Origin: Omnitrophica bacterium GWA2_41_15 | Lineage (GTDB): Bacteria; Omnitrophota; Gorgyraeia; Gygaellales; UBA12090 | DNA: 35,861 bases | Assembly: GCA_919901925.1 (NCBI GenBank) | Contig: CAKKQA010000100.1 | Span: forward strand, 1-35,861 | Direction of reading: 5' to 3' | Shown: positions 1,637-35,861 of the stretch, piece after piece | Layout of the letters: each line of letters opens with the position of its first letter | How positions within the stretch are numbered: the stretch's first letter is position 1 | The notes under the pieces: generated by a model | The model's database searches: none | What the model saw: the letters and a program-made list of their open reading frames with translations, nothing else | Told to the model about the DNA's origin: nothing | Made by a program: the position numbers and the translations under genes

Positions 1637-1703
1637 GTTAGCCAGTTTACCAGTTAGCCAGTTTACCAGTTTTTAACTGGTTAACCGGCCAACTGGCCAA
1701 CAA
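1637..1703. repeat. Family B hairpin: 8-bp words (GTTNNCCN)
   Basis: GTTAGCCA GTTTACCA GTTAGCCA GTTTACCA GTTTTTAACTGGTTAACCGGCCAACTGGCCAAC. Confidence 0.9.
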
Positions 1704-8822: not shown

Positions 8823-8845
8823 CTTTTTCTCCTTCTAAAAATTAT

Positions 8846-8952
8846 CGTCATTGCGAGGAGCTATCGCTGGCATGAGGCGACGAAGCAATCTCGTTTGTAA
8901 AAACGAGATTGCTTCGTCACAGGCAAGTCAAACAAGGGTTCCTCGCAATGAC
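8846..8952. repeat. Family E MITE-like palindromic element (CGTCATTGCGAGG...CCTCGCAATGAC)
   Basis: Terminal inverted repeats plus inner GACGAAGCAATCTCGTTTgtAAAAACGAGATTGCTTCGTC. Confidence 0.93.
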
Positions 8953-9463: not shown

Positions 9464-9481
9464 ATTCGTTAATAAAACTAT

Positions 9482-9575
9482 GTTTTAGGTCTTAGCTCAT
9501 AGGTCATAGTAAAAAAAGCTGTTTTAAGATTTTTTATCTTTTCCTATGAGCTACGAGCTATGACCTATGAGCTAA
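9482..9575. repeat. Family A hairpin, copy 3
   Basis: AGGTCTTAGCTCATAGGTCATAGT...TTCCTATGAGCTACGAGCTATGACCTATGAGCTAA. Confidence 0.85.
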
Positions 9576-14690: not shown

Positions 14691-14761
14691 GTTAAAAACC
14701 CCTTTCATATAAATTTGTTAAACTAACCTATAACAAGAAAATCAAAAGAACGTAAAATTAT

Positions 14762-14867
14762 CGTCATTGCGAGGAGCTATCGTTGACATATGGCGACGAA
14801 GCAATCCCTTTTTTAAAAACGAGATTGCTTCGTCACGGATAGCCGAACGAGGGTTCCTCGCAATGAC
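14762..14867. repeat. Family E element, copy 2
   Basis: CGTCATTGCGAGGAGC...GACGAAGCAATCCCTTTTTTAAAAACGAGATTGCTTCGTC...GGTTCCTCGCAATGAC. Confidence 0.93.
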
Positions 14868-14880
14868 AAACTTATTTTCT

Positions 14881-21172: not shown

Positions 21173-21255
21173 AGTTAGCCTGTTGGCCGGTTTGCCTGTT
21201 AAACATTTTTTTAGTTTTTAACTGGCTAACCGGTAAACCGGCCAACCGGCTAACA
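21173..21255. repeat. Family B hairpin, copy 2
   Basis: GTTAGCCT GTTGGCCG GTTTGCCT GTTAAACA ... TTTTTAACTGGCTAACCGGTAAACCGGCCAACCGGCTAAC. Confidence 0.9.
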
Positions 21256-21258
21256 AAA

Positions 21259-22506
21259 TTAATAATTCTCCTGTATCAACCCAACAATAATCCGCGCTAA
21301 TTTTTCCGGGTCATGCCGGACATAGTCTTGAGAATTTGCCACTTCATTTTCAATGACCTTGCATCCGGCGGATTTTATATTTTGCAGGTTAACATCCACA
21401 GGAAAAGAATTATCTTGTTTATATTTTTCTAATAAATCCTTGGAAATAACCGCGGTATTGACAATACAATAATCTATCACTTTCGCGGAGCTATGCTCCA
21501 AAATCGCCTTTATATGATCATCCGCGGAATACCCATCAGTCTCTCCCGGCTGGGTCATCACGTTACATATGTATATTTTCACTGCCGGGCTTCGGACAAT
21601 CGCGTCTGTTATCTCTCTAATCAAAAGGTTCGGAATAACGCTGGTATACAAACTCCCGGGCCCCAGCACAATCGCCTGCGCCTCTGAAATCGCTTTAATA
21701 GCGTCAGGCGTAGCTTGAGGGAAATCCGGCTTAAGATAAACCCTGCTTATCGGCACCCCTTTTTTAGGTATTGCCGCTTCTCCTTCGACAATGCTGCCGT
21801 CTTTATATGTTGCCACAAGCGATACCTTATTGAGCGTCGAAGGGATGACCTGTCCGCGGATAGCTAAAACTTTACTGGACTCTTTAATCGCTTTCTCGAA
21901 ATCTCCGGTAAGTTTAGTCATTACGGTAATGAAGAGATTTCCGAAACTGTGACCCTTAAGTTCGCTGGGCGATTCAAACCTGAACTGAAATAAATTCTGC
22001 ATAAGGCTTGAGGTATCAGCCAGCGCCACAAGGCAGTTACGGATATCGCCCGGCGGCAATATGTCAAACTCCTGGCGGATCCTCCCCGAAGAGCCTCCGT
22101 CGTCGGCAACAGTAACGACAGCTGTAAGGTTCGAAGTATATTCCTTTAACCCCTGCAACAACACCGCCAAACCCGTGCCTCCGCCGATTGTCACAATCTT
22201 CGGCCCTTTTTCGAGGTAACGCTTACGATAAATTATATCGACTAATTCTTTTTCTCTCTGCGGCAAAAATATGGTTATGAAAGACCCGAGCGTATTGCGC
22301 AGGCCCACAACCGAAAGAAACAAGCCTAATAATATCGAAAGTATATCAATCGCGCGGTAAAAAAAACTGCCTTCGCTGACAAAACGGGCAGTGCCAAAAC
22401 TAATCAGTATAACGCCCAGCATTAAAAGAGCTATCCAGCGCTTTACCTGCATCCCCGGATAGAGCCATTTAATCAACCGCAGGGCAATGTTAGAGTTTCT
22501 TTTCAT
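21259..22506 (-). CDS. yvcK: YvcK/CofD-like gluconeogenesis factor family protein with N-terminal TM segments
   Basis: GPKIVTIGGGTGLAVLLQGLKEYTSNLTAVVTVADDGGSSGRIRQEFDILPPGDIRNCLVALAD, NVMTQPGETDGYSADDHI. Confidence 0.93.
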   Translation of the reverse strand: MKRNSNIALRLIKWLYPGMQVKRWIALLMLGVILISFGTARFVSEGSFFYRAIDILSILLGLFLSVVGLRNTLGSFITIFLPQREKELVDIIYRKRYLEKGPKIVTIGGGTGLAVLLQGLKEYTSNLTAVVTVADDGGSSGRIRQEFDILPPGDIRNCLVALADTSSLMQNLFQFRFESPSELKGHSFGNLFITVMTKLTGDFEKAIKESSKVLAIRGQVIPSTLNKVSLVATYKDGSIVEGEAAIPKKGVPISRVYLKPDFPQATPDAIKAISEAQAIVLGPGSLYTSVIPNLLIREITDAIVRSPAVKIYICNVMTQPGETDGYSADDHIKAILEHSSAKVIDYCIVNTAVISKDLLEKYKQDNSFPVDVNLQNIKSAGCKVIENEVANSQDYVRHDPEKLARIIVGLIQENY

Positions 22507-24045: not shown

Positions 24046-24771
24046 TCATTTGACAATCGTCCCGATTTTCTCCCCCATTAGGACTCGCTTAATATTCCCT
24101 TCTTTAGTTAAATCAAAAATAATAATAGGCAGCCTGTTTTCCATGCAGAGAGTGACCGCGGTAGAATCCATCACCTTAAGCCCTTTTCTCACCACATCAA
24201 TATGTTTTACGGTTGTAAACCTTTTCGCGCCCTTAAACTTAAGCGGGTCAGCCGTGTATACGCCATCCACCTTTGTCGCCTTAAGGACCACCTGCGCGTT
24301 TATCTCTTTTGCCCGAAGCGCGGCAGCGGTGTCTGTCGTAAAATAAGGATTGCCTGTGCCGGCGACAAAAATAACCACCCTGCCTTTTTCCAAATGGCGC
24401 ATCGCCCGGCGGCGGATATAGGCCTCGGCTACCTGGCGCATCTCAATCGCTGTCACCAGCCTCGTCGGCACCCCTGTTTTCTCCAAGGCATCCTGCAGGG
24501 CCATGCCGTTTATTACCGTAGCCAACATTCCCATATAATCCGCCACGGAACGGTCCATATCAAGGCCGTGCGCCTCGACATTTTCAGAACCGCGGAATAT
24601 ATTGCCTCCGCCAAGGACTATCGCGACCTCAACACCCAATTCCCTGATTTCTTTTAACTGACGGGCTATAGAAAAAAGCGTCTTCTGGTCTATGCCATGC
24701 CTGGCGGCTCCTTGAAGCGCCTCGCCGCTTAGTTTTAAAACTATGCGCTTGTATATTGGTTTCTTATCCAT
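24046..24771 (-). CDS. pyrH: UMP kinase
   Basis: [69 protein letters not shown]. Confidence 0.97.
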
Positions 24772-24777
24772 ATTTGT

Positions 24778-24850
24778 TTGCCAGTTAGCCTGTTGGCCAG
24801 TTTGCCAGTTTTTAACTGGCTAACCGGTTAACTGGTAAACCGGCTAACTA
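24778..24850. repeat. Family B hairpin, copy 3
   Basis: TTGCCA GTTAGCCT GTTGGCCA GTTTGCCA GTTTTTAACTGGCTAACCGGTTAACTGGTAAACCGGCTAAC. Confidence 0.9.
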
Positions 24851-25372
24851 ATTACCGACCTGAAACCTTACAAACCTGCGGATGACTATATTCTCGCCGA
24901 ACTTAGCAGTTATCGTATTAAGGTAATCCTTGATTGTCTTTGAAGGATCCTTTACAAACGGCTGTTCTAAAAGGCAGGCCTCTTTGTAAAAGCTATTCAA
25001 GTCAACCTGATCCTTAGCCACATCCTGCGGCACGTCTTCTGTTTTTATGTATTTAGGATTTATCGCCGCTATATGCAGTGCCACATCTGAAGCGAATTTC
25101 ACGAATTCTTCGTTAGAGGCGGTAAAATCCGTCTCAGAGTTTATCTCGACCATCGCGCCCATTTTGCTGTCAAAATGCACATATGAACCGACCCGCCCGG
25201 ACTTGACTGCGCGGTCGGCCTTTTTAGCGGCTATCTCTAATCCTCTTTTTTTCAAAATCTCCGTTGCCTTACTTAAATCGCCTTTCGCTTCTTCAAGGGC
25301 CTTACGGCAATCACCCACCCCCATCGAAGTGGCTTCTCTTAATTTCTTAATTAAATCCAGCGATACGATCAT
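24848..25372 (-). CDS. tsf: Elongation factor Ts (short form)
   Basis: IKKLREATSMGVGDCRKALEEAKGDLSKATEILKKRG, GAMVEINSETDFTASNEEF. ATGA overlap with the rpsB stop. Confidence 0.96.
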   Translation of the reverse strand: MIVSLDLIKKLREATSMGVGDCRKALEEAKGDLSKATEILKKRGLEIAAKKADRAVKSGRVGSYVHFDSKMGAMVEINSETDFTASNEEFVKFASDVALHIAAINPKYIKTEDVPQDVAKDQVDLNSFYKEACLLEQPFVKDPSKTIKDYLNTITAKFGENIVIRRFVRFQVGN

Positions 25373-26344: not shown

Positions 26345-26494
26345 ATAATTGGTGACGAAGCATCAATCTCTTAACGACTCTGATTTAAATAACAAAAGCC
26401 GTATTTTCAAAAAGAAAATACCCCTTTTCACATAAAGTTTAAACACAAATTATAACACAAAAACAACAACTATCAAATAAATTTTTCTTTTTTT

Positions 26495-26601
26495 CGTCAT
26501 TGCGAGGAACCCTCGCTTGACATACCAGTGACGAAGCAATCTCGTATTTAAGAACGTGATTGCTTCGTCGCCAGTACAAAACGACAGCTCCTCGCAATGA
26601 C
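26495..26601. repeat. Family E element, copy 3
   Basis: CGTCATTGCGAGGAACCC...GACGAAGCAATCTCGTATTTAAGAACGTGATTGCTTCGTC...CTCCTCGCAATGAC. Confidence 0.93.
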
Positions 26602-26642
26602 AAAAACGTTTATTTAGCCCAACCCGCAATATTGAGCATCCT

Positions 26643-28537: not shown

Positions 28538-28566
28538 GGGTGTCACCATCATTAGAAATTCCTCAT

Positions 28567-28674
28567 CGTCATTGCGAGGAGCTTTCTCTTGGCTAAGGCG
28601 ACGAAGCAATCTCTTTTTTAAAAACGCGATTGCTTCGTCACTTATATGCCAAACGACGGTTCCTCGCAATGACG
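28567..28674. repeat. Family E element, copy 4
   Basis: CGTCATTGCGAGGAGC...GACGAAGCAATCTCTTTTTTAAAAACGCGATTGCTTCGTC...GGTTCCTCGCAATGACG. Confidence 0.93.
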
Positions 28675-29815: not shown

Positions 29816-31174
29816 ATGATATCAAAGCGAATCCTCATCATCTCCGGCGAACCTTCGGGAGACCTGCAAGCCAGCCTGCTTGCCGCTAATCTAAAGCAAC
29901 TCGATAACCAAATAGAAATCTACGCCGTCGGTGGAGAGCATTTAAAGAAAACCGGCGCGCAAATTATCCACGACATAAAAGATTTAAGCGTCCTCGGACT
30001 TTTTGATGTCCTGCGTAAGCTGGATAAATTCAAAGCCTTAATGCGCTTCATCCTGGAAGAAATCGAACGCTTAAAACCCGAAGCGATAATCTTTGTGGAT
30101 TTCTCCGGCTTTAACCTGCGCTTAGCTAAAAAAATAAACAACAAAATCAAAACGATTTACTACATCTCTCCTCAAGTCTGGGCATCCCGTCAAGGAAGAG
30201 TCGCAACCATCAAAAAATATATTCAAAAGTTGATTGTCATCTTTAGGTTTGAACATGATTTCTACAAAAAATTCGGCATTGAGGCAGAATTCGTCGGCCA
30301 CCCAATGTTGGACGTCGGACGTCCAACATTGGAAAAACAGAAAGCACTCGCGGAATTCGGCTTAACAGAAACCGCGCCGATCTTCGCTCTTCTTCCCGGC
30401 TCAAGAGTCTCCGAAGTAAAAAAGATACTTCCGATAATGGCCAAAAGCGCGTCAATAATCAGAGAAACCATCCCTGAAGCGCAATTTGTAGTGGCAAAAG
30501 TCGCGCACATCGACGCAAAAATCTACGAAAAAATATTAGCCAAACAAACGGGTTTGATAAATCAAACCCGTACAGGCATACCGCAACACACCTGTAGGGG
30601 CGCCATTTATGGCGCCCGCAATAATACAACAACACACGATGTAGAGGCGCCATTTATCCCGCCCGAAGGCACACGACGACCACCCTGTAGGGGCGTCATT
30701 TATGACGCCCGCAATAATGCGACAGCACGCACTGTAGGGGCGCGATTTATCGCGCCCGAAGATAAGCAACTTTCCTATTGCTTTAAACTCATCGAATCCC
30801 AACCCTACGACTGCATCAACGTAGCGGACTTCGTCCTGGTCGCCTCCGGCACCGCGACTTTAGAAACTGCCATTATGGCCAAACCAAATGTGATTATCTA
30901 CAAAATGGGCCTGCTTAATTATATGCTTTATCGGCCGATGATAAAAGTGCCTTATATAGGAATGGAAAATATTGTGGCAGGAAAAATGCTAGCTCCGGAG
31001 TTTATCCAGTTTAAAGCCAAGCCCAAAGTAATTGCCTCAACTGTCCTGAATATTTTTATGAATAAAGAAAGGCTGGATGAATTACAGAAGGATTTTAGAG
31101 AATTAAAAGAAAGGCTGGGCCCACCCAACGCCCCTCTTCGCGCCGCAGAATCAATCTTATCATTCCTGAAATAA
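29816..31174 (+). CDS. lpxB: Lipid-A-disaccharide synthase carrying a repeat-derived in-frame insertion
   Basis: ILIISGEPSGDLQASLLAANL, GGEHLKKTGA, IFVDFSGFNLRLAKKI, YYISPQVWASRQGR, LLPGSRVSEVKKILPIM, LVASGTATLETAIMAKPNVIIYKM. Confidence 0.94.
   Translation: MISKRILIISGEPSGDLQASLLAANLKQLDNQIEIYAVGGEHLKKTGAQIIHDIKDLSVLGLFDVLRKLDKFKALMRFILEEIERLKPEAIIFVDFSGFNLRLAKKINNKIKTIYYISPQVWASRQGRVATIKKYIQKLIVIFRFEHDFYKKFGIEAEFVGHPMLDVGRPTLEKQKALAEFGLTETAPIFALLPGSRVSEVKKILPIMAKSASIIRETIPEAQFVVAKVAHIDAKIYEKILAKQTGLINQTRTGIPQHTCRGAIYGARNNTTTHDVEAPFIPPEGTRRPPCRGVIYDARNNATARTVGARFIAPEDKQLSYCFKLIESQPYDCINVADFVLVASGTATLETAIMAKPNVIIYKMGLLNYMLYRPMIKVPYIGMENIVAGKMLAPEFIQFKAKPKVIASTVLNIFMNKERLDELQKDFRELKERLGPPNAPLRAAESILSFLK
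30302..30332. repeat. Perfect palindrome (15-bp arms, 1-nt spacer) inside lpxB
   Basis: CCAATGTTGGACGTC-g-GACGTCCAACATTGG; encodes MLDVGRPTLE. Confidence 0.92.
30548..30759. repeat. Cluster of five family C half-elements inside lpxB, four of them as a duplicated unit of about 93 bp
   Basis: ACGGGTTTGATaaATCAAACCCGT (30548-30571); TGTAGGGGCGCCATttATGGCGCCC; TGTAGAGGCGCCATTTATCCCGCCC; TGTAGGGGCGTCATttATGACGCCC; TGTAGGGGCGCGATttATCGCGCCC. Encodes CRGAIYGARNNTTTHDVEAPFIPPEGTRRP / CRGVIYDARNNATARTVGARFIAPEDKQ. Confidence 0.92.
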
Positions 31175-32123: not shown

Positions 32124-32141
32124 TTTGTAAAATCCTCACAT

Positions 32142-32199
32142 CGTCATTGCGAGGAACCCTTAATTGACATGTCTGTGACGAAGCAAACCCACTTTTAAA
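32142..32199. repeat. Family E left-half fragment
   Basis: CGTCATTGCGAGGAACCCTTAATTGACATGTCTGTGACGAAGCAAACCCACTTTTAAAG; right half absent. Confidence 0.82.
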
Positions 32200-32226: not shown

Positions 32227-35200
32227 CTACGACGCCGCCGGACGGCTCTTCTCAATCACGCACAAGAAGGCCTTAAACTCCTGCGGCGTTTCTTCAACGA
32301 ACTCCTCTTGAAGCCTGAAGAAATTCACCTCACAGATTACCGCCTCATCCGCGATTTTTCCGCTGTTGCCCATCAAATAACACGCGGACATAAACTCAAT
32401 CATCCGCTGGCTTGACGGCAAAATCCCGGCTATCATCATCTTCTGCAATTCTGATGCTTCATCAGTAACGTTAATTCCCCTTAACACATTCAAATCCGGC
32501 ATCTTAAAATTGAGAAGCGGACTGCTCGCCTGTATCTGCGTAGCCATATTGATGTAGCGAAAGTCAATGCCGCCGGGCGCCACTGATGAAGAGGCGTTTT
32601 GGTTTGCCTGTTCTGAACCGGCTAACTGGTTAACCGGCGAACTGGCTAACTGCCCTGCCGGCGAAGAGGCGGCGGGATTAGTTTTACTTAGCCGCACCAG
32701 AACAGGGCGATTTATAGAAATAATTATTGTGGTTACCTGTTCAGGACTATCATACCTGGAAATATATAATTTATCCTGTTGTTGTATTAAACCTTCGAGT
32801 GTGCCTAATTTTATCTGTCTCTTGCTATCTTCATCTAAACCTTCCCGATTGAAATATATTGATAAATCCTTCTCGGGTTTAGACAAGACTAATCGTATAC
32901 TCACTTGTCTGCCACTTCCAACTATAGGAGTTACATACGCCATAATTTCTTGCGCAGTCCTCGCAACCGGCGAAGAGGCCAAGACTTGTTTGCCGGCGGC
33001 AAAGGGAGATAATCTAATATGTGGATATACTCCTATCGCCCTTTTTGTACCGTCTGGGGCATCAGTTGTTTCCACTCTGCAAGACAGCTTACCGTCTTGG
33101 CTCTTTGCGGCAATTTTCCTAAGATTATCTTTCACCCGCTCCTCATTGGCGATATTAACATCTACCGGAACTCCGACAGTAGGTTCAACCCAAAGTATTA
33201 ATAAAGCAGGAACACTGCCCGCATTAATCATTTCAATTATATATTTAGCCACTTCGTCCACATCACCGATTATCTCTTGAACTGCAGTTACCGGAGAAGA
33301 GGCGGCTGGCGCAGGCAATTTTTTCATTGCATCCTGCCATGAAATATTGGTCTGGCCGCGGACAATTTTATGTGCAGATTCTCCACTATCGCTGTCTCCA
33401 GGATACCAAGTAATACGGATGTTATCGGCATCATGCCTCACAACGTACAGTATACCTGCACGTAAATTTGTAGCTCGGTCATTCAATATATATTTATCCC
33501 CGATTAAACCATCTCGACTTGTATACGGACCAGATTCTACCAAAGAATAATTATTCGGATTTACCGGCGAAGAGGCGGGTTGTTGGTTTGCCGGTTTGCC
33601 TGTTTCTCTGTTGGCCTGTTCTGAACCGGCTAACCGGTTAACCGGCGAACTGGCTAACTGCCCTGCCGGCGAAGAAGCGAAGCCCCTCTCCAAAATGCCC
33701 GCAACCTTTTCAAAGAATTCCCTTATATCGCCTTGCGCGTTTTCAGCTGTATCCTCGCTGGCTATTAACACGACTTTACGCCTATCGGATACTAAAGACT
33801 GCGCTGTTCCAATGGCCTGTGCCTTCAATAGATTGCTATCATAACCCACAGGTTTTGGCTGGCTGTATTCGCCTGCCATTAGGTAAGTTGAAAACCACAT
33901 ATCCCTGCCTGCGGAGATATTCTGGTGATAAGAATGATTCTTATCCGGGCCTTCACCTAATTTAGAAGGCATCTTAAGCATATCGGTAAAAATTCTAAAC
34001 CTCATGCCCTCAAGAATACTCCTTAAACCGGGGCTCATCCTGCCATAAGAAGTAACCTCCGCGGCCTCGAAACCCTGGCGGTTTAACAATATCTCCATTA
34101 TTGCCGCGTAAACCGCGGGCGCGTCATTCATAGTAAAGCCCATTTCCCTGACTTCTTCCGCGACCTCTCGCGCGGTAATAATCCCAGCTTGAATTAGTGG
34201 CCCGTAATACAGCTTTAACGATTTGAAATCAGCGCTTTTCCAATCAGCCGGCACTTGAACATCTTCTCCCGACGGCAAAGCTTGCATTACTTCTCTTGTA
34301 GCCTTCTTATATCCTTCTACCGCAGGCTGGTCCACAAAACAAATATCCCAAAGATACCCTACCACCCCAACCGCCCTTTGTAACCCAAGCATCAGCCCGC
34401 CTATGGAAGCGGCGTCATCAACATCTATCTCAAATACAGGATAACCTTCAGCCAACAGATAATCCCACAACTCTTGATTAACCTTTCTTCCTGCCAAATT
34501 AATCCTGATGAAAACCCTGTCATTTCTATCCACAGGTTTTAATTCACCGGGTGAAAACCTCTCGCCATAAAATAGGCTAATGCCCTTGCCGTCTTTACCT
34601 AAGGATTCTTCGACTAACTGTTCTGTCCAAAGCGGTATATCTCTTAACGCCTCATCCACAAACATTGTAACTTTGTCTTTCTTCCCTTTAGACGCCATAT
34701 TATACAAGAAGGCGCCAAGTTTAAGAAAAACATCATCTTCCATCTTTTTTTCATTCATTGCCTTAGCTTTTGTAAGTGTATCAACTAATATTTCCGGCGC
34801 TGTAATTGCCAAAGGTAAAAGGAAAATATTAGTAGTGGGAGAGGTAAACCTTCCTCCTATATCTCCTTTTCCGTTAAGCTGTATCTCTCTTTGTTTATAA
34901 TCCCCGGTATCCATAGGCGAACCTTTATCCGTCACCACCCACATATGCTCTTTGACATCCATTGAAAAATGAGCAAATAGGCCTTCAAAATATTTTTTAT
35001 GCGAAACTGTCTCCTGCGTTGTGCCGGATTTACTGATAGGTATCACTAAAGTTTTCTCCAGCGCCGCTTCCCGCGAACCGGCATCTGCAGTTATTTCATC
35101 AAGGATTTCTTTTATTGCCGCGGGGTCCGTGGTCCTCAAACTGTAAATTTTAGTTTTCGCGTCCGGGCTCTCAAAAGTGCTCTTAACTACCTGCACGCTT

Positions 35201-35861
35201 AAGCCCGAACCGCCCATACCGCAGAAAATCACATACTTATATCTATCCCTGATAATCCTGCCATCAGCTAAAACATTATCAAGAATTTGACGATGAGTTA
35301 ATATCCAATCTAAATTAGGCATAGTCCAACCAAGTCGATTTTCCACAATGCCGCGTTTTTCATCAACCTCAAAACCAACCCTCGCCATTCTTGGGTTTGC
35401 CGCTTTTGCGTCAGCTATGTTCAGGCCATACATAGCCCTCACTTGATTCTCAAACTCTCTCAATCTCGCGAATCCCTCCGCCCCAAGAAAAGATTCAATT
35501 TGCCGTATCGTTACCGGCGAAGAGGCGGGTTGTTGGTTTGCCAGTTGGCCAGTTGACCTGTTGGCCTGTTCCAAACCGGCTAACTGGTTAACCGGCGAAC
35601 TGGTTAACTGTTCCACCGGCGAAGAAACTACGCCGGCTTCCTTCTCAATAACCTCTTCTTTGCCCCTGCCTAAAGCCGCATAGACATCATCAGGAATCGC
35701 CTCCAGCAAGTCAACAACTTCTGCCTGCGGCATTGCCTGCGGCTTGGATAAATCAACACCTATTGGCGGAAGGCCATGATCCATCAGCCATTTATTTATT
35801 AAGGCGATTTGATTTGCAGGCGGCGTGAAACTGCGTAATTTAGCGATATCATTCTTCTCCA
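32227..35861 (-). CDS. Giant multidomain protein with phosphoglucose isomerase (SIS) domain and SSPV-type repeat linkers; 5' end beyond the window
   Basis: Frame stays open to the window edge (upstream of the listed Met: EKNDIAKLRSFTPPANQIALINKWL-MDHGLPP). PGI-like YVIFCGMGGSGLSVQV and TLVIPISKSGTTQETVSHKKYFEGLF. Three repeat linkers plus single SSPV units. Confidence 0.85.
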   Translation of the reverse strand, partial: EKNDIAKLRSFTPPANQIALINKWLMDHGLPPIGVDLSKPQAMPQAEVVDLLEAIPDDVYAALGRGKEEVIEKEAGVVSSPVEQLTSSPVNQLAGLEQANRSTGQLANQQPASSPVTIRQIESFLGAEGFARLREFENQVRAMYGLNIADAKAANPRMARVGFEVDEKRGIVENRLGWTMPNLDWILTHRQILDNVLADGRIIRDRYKYVIFCGMGGSGLSVQVVKSTFESPDAKTKIYSLRTTDPAAIKEILDEITADAGSREAALEKTLVIPISKSGTTQETVSHKKYFEGLFAHFSMDVKEHMWVVTDKGSPMDTGDYKQREIQLNGKGDIGGRFTSPTTNIFLLPLAITAPEILVDTLTKAKAMNEKKMEDDVFLKLGAFLYNMASKGKKDKVTMFVDEALRDIPLWTEQLVEESLGKDGKGISLFYGERFSPGELKPVDRNDRVFIRINLAGRKVNQELWDYLLAEGYPVFEIDVDDAASIGGLMLGLQRAVGVVGYLWDICFVDQPAVEGYKKATREVMQALPSGEDVQVPADWKSADFKSLKLYYGPLIQAGIITAREVAEEVREMGFTMNDAPAVYAAIMEILLNRQGFEAAEVTSYGRMSPGLRSILEGMRFRIFTDMLKMPSKLGEGPDKNHSYHQNISAGRDMWFSTYLMAGEYSQPKPVGYDSNLLKAQAIGTAQSLVSDRRKVVLIASEDTAENAQGDIREFFEKVAGILERGFASSPAGQLASSPVNRLAGSEQANRETGKPANQQPASSPVNPNNYSLVESGPYTSRDGLIGDKYILNDRATNLRAGILYVVRHDADNIRITWYPGDSDSGESAHKIVRGQTNISWQDAMKKLPAPAASSPVTAVQEIIGDVDEVAKYIIEMINAGSVPALLILWVEPTVGVPVDVNIANEERVKDNLRKIAAKSQDGKLSCRVETTDAPDGTKRAIGVYPHIRLSPFAAGKQVLASSPVARTAQEIMAYVTPIVGSGRQVSIRLVLSKPEKDLSIYFNREGLDEDSKRQIKLGTLEGLIQQQDKLYISRYDSPEQVTTIIISINRPVLVRLSKTNPAASSPAGQLASSPVNQLAGSEQANQNASSSVAPGGIDFRYINMATQIQASSPLLNFKMPDLNVLRGINVTDEASELQKMMIAGILPSSQRMIEFMSACYLMGNSGKIADEAVICEVNFFRLQEEFVEETPQEFKAFLCVIEKSRPAAS
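32588..32672. repeat. Family B element in-frame within the giant CDS, copy 1
   Basis: GTTTGCCTGTTCTGAACCGGCTAACTGGTTAACCGGCGAACTGGCTAACTG; encodes SSPAGQLASSPVNQLAGSEQANQNASSSV on minus. Confidence 0.88.
33561..33683. repeat. Family B element in-frame within the giant CDS, copy 2
   Basis: GTTTGCCG GTTTGCCT GTTTCTCT GTTGGCCT GTTCTGAACCGGCTAACCGGTTAACCGGCGAACTGGCTAACTG; encodes ASSPAGQLASSPVNRLAGSEQANRETGKPANQQPASSPV. Confidence 0.9.
35511..35627. repeat. Family B element in-frame within the giant CDS, copy 3
   Basis: GTTTGCCA GTTGGCCA GTTGACCT GTTGGCCT GTTCCAAACCGGCTAACTGGTTAACCGGCGAACTGGTTAACTG; encodes VSSPVEQLTSSPVNQLAGLEQANRSTGQLANQQPASSPV. Confidence 0.9.

Follow-up and report, generated by a model that had tools for sequence, protein, structure and literature searches.

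An octamer hairpin repeat between genes and in frame within proteins of an Omnitrophota genome

Contig CAKKQA010000100.1 of Omnitrophica bacterium GWA2_41_15 (contig C100, 35,861 bp; the whole contig is referred to here as the window) carried a repeat built of inverted arrays of the octamer GTTNRCCN, which occurred both as hairpins between genes and in frame within proteins, including three linkers of a giant gene. The reading that we favour, at a probability of about 0.7, is that this octamer element is a dispersed repeat of the lineage, copied to new sites and surviving where it is harmless, the coding copies in the giant gene included. The window belongs to a 1.79-Mb genome in 201 contigs (90.5% complete, 3.3% contamination), of which about 0.86 Mb was covered base by base; the cluster counts given below refer to the contigs covered, and open reading frames were called mechanically. 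Among named genomes, Candidatus Omnitrophota gave the best protein matches. An earlier note on this DNA had claimed that the three linkers and three intergenic hairpins had octamer words in common, and such words were present at all six sites. The copies in the window and the open frame that hosts the linkers were as follows.

1637..1701, intergenic: octamer hairpin of four words, a loop and three words, with a peptidyl-prolyl-isomerase-like gene on one side and a same-strand gene on the other
21174..21254, intergenic: octamer hairpin with an A/T-rich loop, 4 nt past the stop of gene 21259-22506 (minus strand)
24776..24848, intergenic: octamer hairpin between a tsf-like gene (24848-25372, minus strand) and a pyrH-like gene (24046-24771, minus strand)
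32227..35859, minus strand: host open frame of the linkers, at least 1210 aa, continuing past the contig end
32602..32650, minus strand: in-frame copy 1, shorter, with one outer word on one side
33586..33658, minus strand: in-frame copy 2, in the linker C-terminal of the isomerase-like domain
35536..35608, minus strand: in-frame copy 3, in the linker N-terminal of the isomerase-like domain

In the element, an A/T-rich loop was flanked by two arrays in inverted orientation, each of about four words, and the whole was capable of forming a hairpin. A usual copy was 65-90 bp long: some four GTTNRCCN words led into a centre of the type GTTAAAA...TTTTAAC, which was followed by some four NGGYNAAC words. 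Most copies had a loop of 0-25 nt between the arms, and in a few the loop was longer or compound. Word positions 1-3 and 6-7 were near-invariant; A, T and G occurred at position 4 and A, G and T at position 8, and position 5 was G or A in most words. Predicted RNA folds of ten copies had energies of -23 to -46 kcal/mol and z scores of -2.8 to -9.5 (-36.9 kcal/mol, z -8.6 for 1637..1701; -39.2 kcal/mol, z -6.6 for 21174..21254). The search of whole genomes proposed in the earlier note bore out a repeat that extends beyond the window: the two-word pattern GTTNRCCNGTTNRCCNGTT had 245 matches in the genome versus 1 for the reversed control, 238 of the 245 lying within the first 0.56 Mb examined, where they grouped as 56 clusters, and high copy numbers were found in few of the 58 genomes searched. 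An Rfam scan of the window returned tRNAs only, the octamer element matching no known family. The hairpin alignment was examined for base-pair covariation where the words vary, and none was found; positions 4 and 8 were matched in 31% and 35% of the stem pairs versus 38% and 42% with shuffled words, and the variation of the words is thus not stem covariation. The arms had been described as microsatellite-type, a description that failed, since the arrays were not pure microsatellite: positions 4, 5 and 8 varied, and 4 and 8 paired no better than chance.

Of the intergenic clusters, 44 lay between co-directional and 2 between divergent genes. A preference for co-directional gaps was considered and rejected because 94% of close neighbouring gene pairs are co-directional genome-wide. 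The upstream stop codon was overlapped by 16 of the 44 co-directional clusters and was no more than 25 nt away in 37; the last base of the hairpin at 24776..24848, for example, supplied the end of the upstream gene's TAG stop. The tsf-pyrH gap, which held this hairpin in the window genome, was just 3 nt in DeMMO5_9, a related Omnitrophota record (G058). A functional site would be one at which a protein, for instance of the HU/IHF kind, or an RNA process reads the words and keeps GTT and CC fixed, with the coding copies as by-products. Such a site would agree with word positions 1-3 and 6-7 staying fixed while 4 and 8 vary without above-chance pairing, with the strongly negative z scores of the RNA folds and with the location of copies between co-transcribed genes, and it resembles the paired octanucleotide sites of Geobacter metallireducens, which the available text of PMC2700814 gives as predicted to bind global regulators. 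We nevertheless consider it doubtful, given the high copy number in few of the 58 related genomes and the co-directionality of most close gene pairs regardless of the element.

The giant gene encoded a phosphoglucose-isomerase-like domain at residues ~121-726 (Pfam PF00342, E 3e-7). A covariance model trained on 13 elements, with the window's three intergenic hairpins included and the giant-gene linkers left out, matched 35536-35606 (E 1.6e-17), 33586-33656 (E 2.2e-16) and 32596-32640 (E 9.7e-7); recovery of all three linkers upheld the claim that they are the same repeat. It is highly improbable that the Ser/Pro/Gln-rich linkers are instead conserved protein sequence whose likeness in DNA stems from codon or composition bias: SSPV-type linkers with varied codons are indeed widespread in the giant proteins of the group, but this linker-blind model detected the octamer part in DNA, the identical type of DNA occurred in unrelated enzymes, and no such linker was present in the isomerase-like orthologues examined (standalone in genomes G002, G004 and G005, fused elsewhere). 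SSP[VLI] occurred 37 times in the open frames examined, in many codon spellings, and the spelling AGTTCGCCGGTT was found inside octamer arrays. SSPV as a piece of the DNA repeat was rejected because of these diverse codons, and SSPV is taken as a Ser/Pro linker common to proteins of this type; accordingly, the earlier claim that the linker peptide comes from the repeat held for the octamer part and not for SSPV. The linkers of copies 2 (33561-33684) and 3 (35511-35634) were 86% alike across 124 nt, non-octamer flanks included, and because the likeness reaches into the flanks, these copies point to duplication within the gene rather than three independent arrivals. Thus, the giant-gene linkers are true members of the element, yet poor exemplars, being internal duplicates with a peptide that is partly ordinary SSPV.

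Two features of the giant gene were also seen in relatives. The isomerase-like domain occurred in frames reported as 17,444 and 27,888 residues (loci L048 in G045 and L049 in G056), and the C-terminal domain of about 120 residues (window 32227-32560; loci L052-L071), which often follows GGIDFR, was common in their long proteins.

In-frame arrays were additionally present in five housekeeping genes of the genome, identified by Pfam and PDB matches.

Contig C10, 5493-5570: array in KdtA
Contig C24, 5883-5914: array in PyrK, one arm
Contig C186, 9425-9495: array in Asd (aspartate-semialdehyde dehydrogenase)
Contig C186, 24893-24924: array in DapF, one arm
Contig C186, 44698-44768: array in UvrA

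Alignment to relatives placed all five in length-variable segments, which presumably correspond to surface loops, and same-family relatives mostly had no octamer array at these positions. UvrA had at least 18 extra residues compared with most relatives and KdtA about 14, while the Asd loop had 29 residues versus 22 or 23 in most of 60 Omnitrophota; peptides predicted from the sequences of UvrA and Asd included VSQLASLPVSQSNR and QTGKPANR. The analogy to Rickettsia palindromic elements (RPEs) drawn in the earlier note was apt, and is stronger than it was there, because five housekeeping genes carry arrays that relatives mostly lack. Loss of the A/T-rich loop from coding copies, also claimed there, was seen in the window copies, Asd and UvrA, whereas KdtA kept a short A-rich loop. 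The AlphaFold2 model of Asd had a mean predicted local distance difference test score of 70, with residues 184-216, which comprise most of the element, below 50; with a shallow alignment, the model says little more than that the segment is not confidently folded.

Since the word length of 8 is not divisible by 3, each frame of one strand gives the same octapeptide in rotated form, and a word that bears a stop shuts one frame in three. Full-length coding copies had just one of the three coding-strand frames open, and every giant-gene linker had exactly one of three open on each strand, that of the coding strand being the one used, as the earlier note had stated. Coding copies were open in the frame of the gene in 8 of 8 cases and intergenic copies in any frame in 9 of 40 (Fisher p = 6e-5), the other 31 being shut in all six frames; the expectation that coding copies are open more often than chance was thereby borne out, with the qualification that the contrast is partly inherent in defining copies as coding. 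It is best read as survivorship of frame-compatible copies, with selection as the probable cause.

Among the 58 genomes, the octamer was abundant in the window genome, G010 and G047, with fewer copies in G039 and G021, and the same-family genomes G001-G008 had zero or one match each. DeMMO5_9 had 38 pattern matches. Octamer arrays within open frames were many in G010, G047 and DeMMO5_9, where gene names were assigned from motifs and not from domain searches. At least eight loops had octamer arrays in more than one genome, namely those of Asd, PyrK, PheS, IspG, TsaD, HisF, a fumarate-hydratase-like protein and the start of PyrF. The Asd element (C186:9425-9495) was identical to that of DeMMO5_9 (locus L397) at 70 of 71 positions, with 150-nt flanks 77% and 76% identical. 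Random pairs of elements within the window genome had a mean identity of 78% (standard deviation 5, maximum 93%), so the identity in Asd exceeds what shared words would give; it suggests either recent sharing between lineages or DNA held constant. In the remaining shared loops, the elements were 58-88% identical, mostly near random pairs, and common descent was not distinguishable from independent arrival at such values.

Units other than the octamer were found in the same loops of relatives: G005 had CTATCCG in DapF and PyrK; in G001, CCTCCGG occupied the DapF loop and GGCCGGG that of PyrK; KdtA had CGACCAT-type heptamers in G002 and G004, and the DapF loop of G006 had a 10-bp unit.

Loci with differing 7-, 8- and 10-bp units in the DapF, PyrK and KdtA loops: L253, L252, L255, L262, L260, L234, L236, L238

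Arrays of CTATCCG occurred at multiple sites in some of these relatives. Of the 60 Asd loops, 5 contained an exact tandem run of at least 11, compared with 0 of 1721 control windows of the same length in the same genes. Replication slippage might have built each array on the spot, wherever a loop or gap tolerates it, a shared position then marking tolerance and not movement. The differing units of different species within the same loops (CTATCCG, CCTCCGG, GGCCGGG, CGACCAT, AACTCAAAGN), the single arm of four identical words in many coding copies and the replacement, rather than mere lengthening, of loops would all suit such a local birth. It is unlikely, however, in view of one unit at dozens of sites in one genome and missing from most relatives, of inverted arms, which are not a product of slippage, and of the near-identical Asd element despite its diverged flanks.

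As a tentative extension, less likely to be right than wrong, certain protein loops of Omnitrophota (those of Asd, PyrK, DapF, KdtA, TsaD, IspG, HisF, PheS, PyrF and others) may form a fixed set of landing pads that are used repeatedly: the short-unit repeat carried by a given species would overwrite the DNA of the loop, and unrelated 7-, 8- and 10-bp families would replace one another; a copying process, possibly operating between species, would write the degenerate arrays in place. REPs (repetitive extragenic palindromes) at about the same recB site in two Xanthomonas species are described in the available text of PMC3733652, and beyond these a limited literature search found no report of different repeat families recurring in the same loops.

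Under the favoured reading of a dispersed, tolerated repeat, copies would reach new sites by a copying process. Intergenic survivors would be those just past stop codons between co-transcribed genes, their first base often completing the stop; coding survivors would be those in flexible loops and interdomain linkers, where selection would let only copies open in the frame of the gene persist. In the giant gene, the three coding copies would owe part of their number to internal duplication and would have become joined to ordinary SSPV linkers. Active movement of the element is suggested by its distribution, and several observations weigh against the reading as a whole. No excess of direct repeats was found when target-site duplications were sought at the ends of 29 elements, and Y1 transposases, scored per genome, occurred irrespective of the octamer, in 50 of the 58 genomes. 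The words varied at positions 4, 5 and 8 and hardly elsewhere, which plain copying with neutral decay fails to explain. Elements lay in about 26 contigs, and none were found in about 300 kb of other contigs examined (for example C102, 45 kb). The DapF loop had no net gain in length and PyrK little, the DapF loop and largely that of Asd being replaced and not enlarged; open-frame survivorship follows in part from the way in which coding copies are defined. From the mixed gains in length, entry of an array would sometimes be insertion and sometimes replacement of a loop. The claim that the repeat enters coding sequence therefore stood in so far as the same DNA is both intergenic and coding, and did not stand as one of clean insertion, as Asd and DapF illustrate. 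A foreign organism as the source of the element-poor contigs was also considered and rejected, composition and other repeats failing to separate these contigs.

Other repeats were present in the window. An LpxB-like gene (29816-31174, plus strand) encoded about 82 extra residues (243-324) relative to the matched solved LpxB structures; the corresponding stretch (30574-30766) was a tandem series of TGTAGGGGCGCC...GGCGCCCG palindromes and represents a second family, REP-like with GTAG and in frame. Intergenic hairpins of the 7-bp word TAGNTCA (TAGCTCATAGGTCATAG...), a heptamer counterpart of the octamer element, were located at 222-323, 793-908 and 9480-9575. A third dispersed repeat, CATTGCGAGG...GACGAAGCAATCTC, was located at 8844-8952, 14760-14868, 26494-26604, 28565-28673 and 32141-32198 and was frequent in many contigs.

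These results add paired arrays of short units, in an uncultured phylum, to the protein-coding palindromes known from Rickettsia-type elements, and connect intergenic hepta- and octanucleotide arrays with in-frame palindromes, which are separate topics in the literature covered by a limited search. The repeated use of the same essential-protein loops by different repeat families constitutes a natural experiment on loop tolerance and on the origin of new protein segments from non-coding repeats, and an element identical at 70 of 71 positions inside diverged Asd genes makes the mode of spread testable.

Several known systems share features with the octamer element. According to the available text of PMC3733652, GTAG/CGTC REPs lie near gene 3' ends, supply TAG stops and occur in some cases within open reading frames, uvrA among them. 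The octamer element is likewise near gene 3' ends, stop-completing and present within uvrA; however, no prominent GTAG/CGTC tag was found in its end flanks, its ends being GTT...AAC. At the level of whole genomes, Y1 transposases occurred irrespective of the octamer. Target-site duplication, by which miniature inverted-repeat transposable elements are recognised, was likewise not found for the 29 elements. Heptamer arrays of TAACTGA in Beggiatoaceae are mostly intergenic, overlap upstream stops and are in a few cases in frame (PMC4679880, available text); they differ in being direct, with no inverted arms, and in that their in-frame cases are mostly at protein ends. PARCEL repeats are palindromic, protein-coding and patchily distributed, but form a defined protein domain largely of membrane and surface proteins and not a dispersed intergenic hairpin (PMC2996958, available text).

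The closest likeness in architecture is to class 1 of G. metallireducens (Gmet_I1), a one-genome family of about 48 sequences with four tandem octanucleotides GTTGCTYN per site, in which sites are paired on opposite strands at variable spacing and interpreted as predicted HU/IHF global-regulator binding sites; arrays of the heptamer GGACCGG, within genes as well as between them, are also described, and the text available contains no reading-frame analysis of the Gmet_I1 sites that we could find (all PMC2700814). Like Gmet_I1, the Omnitrophota element has about four tandem octamers with degenerate positions per site, and its sites come in pairs, one on each strand, at varying spacing. Its word is GTTNRCCN and not GTTGCTYN, and its host is of a distant phylum; it is thus of the same kind and of a different family.

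RPEs are described as palindromes of unit length, as opposed to inverted arrays in which a short degenerate word recurs, and the octamer element differs from them also in host and probably in sequence. As cited in the available text of PMC3733652 and PMC2996958, RPEs (Ogata, Claverie) are both intergenic and in frame in loops of housekeeping proteins; judged by this description, the octamer element is like them in being a palindromic repeat in frame within conserved proteins. Paired octanucleotide arrays and in-frame palindromes are each already known. The octamer element shares its construction with the paired short-unit arrays found in G. metallireducens and resembles RPEs in its behaviour.

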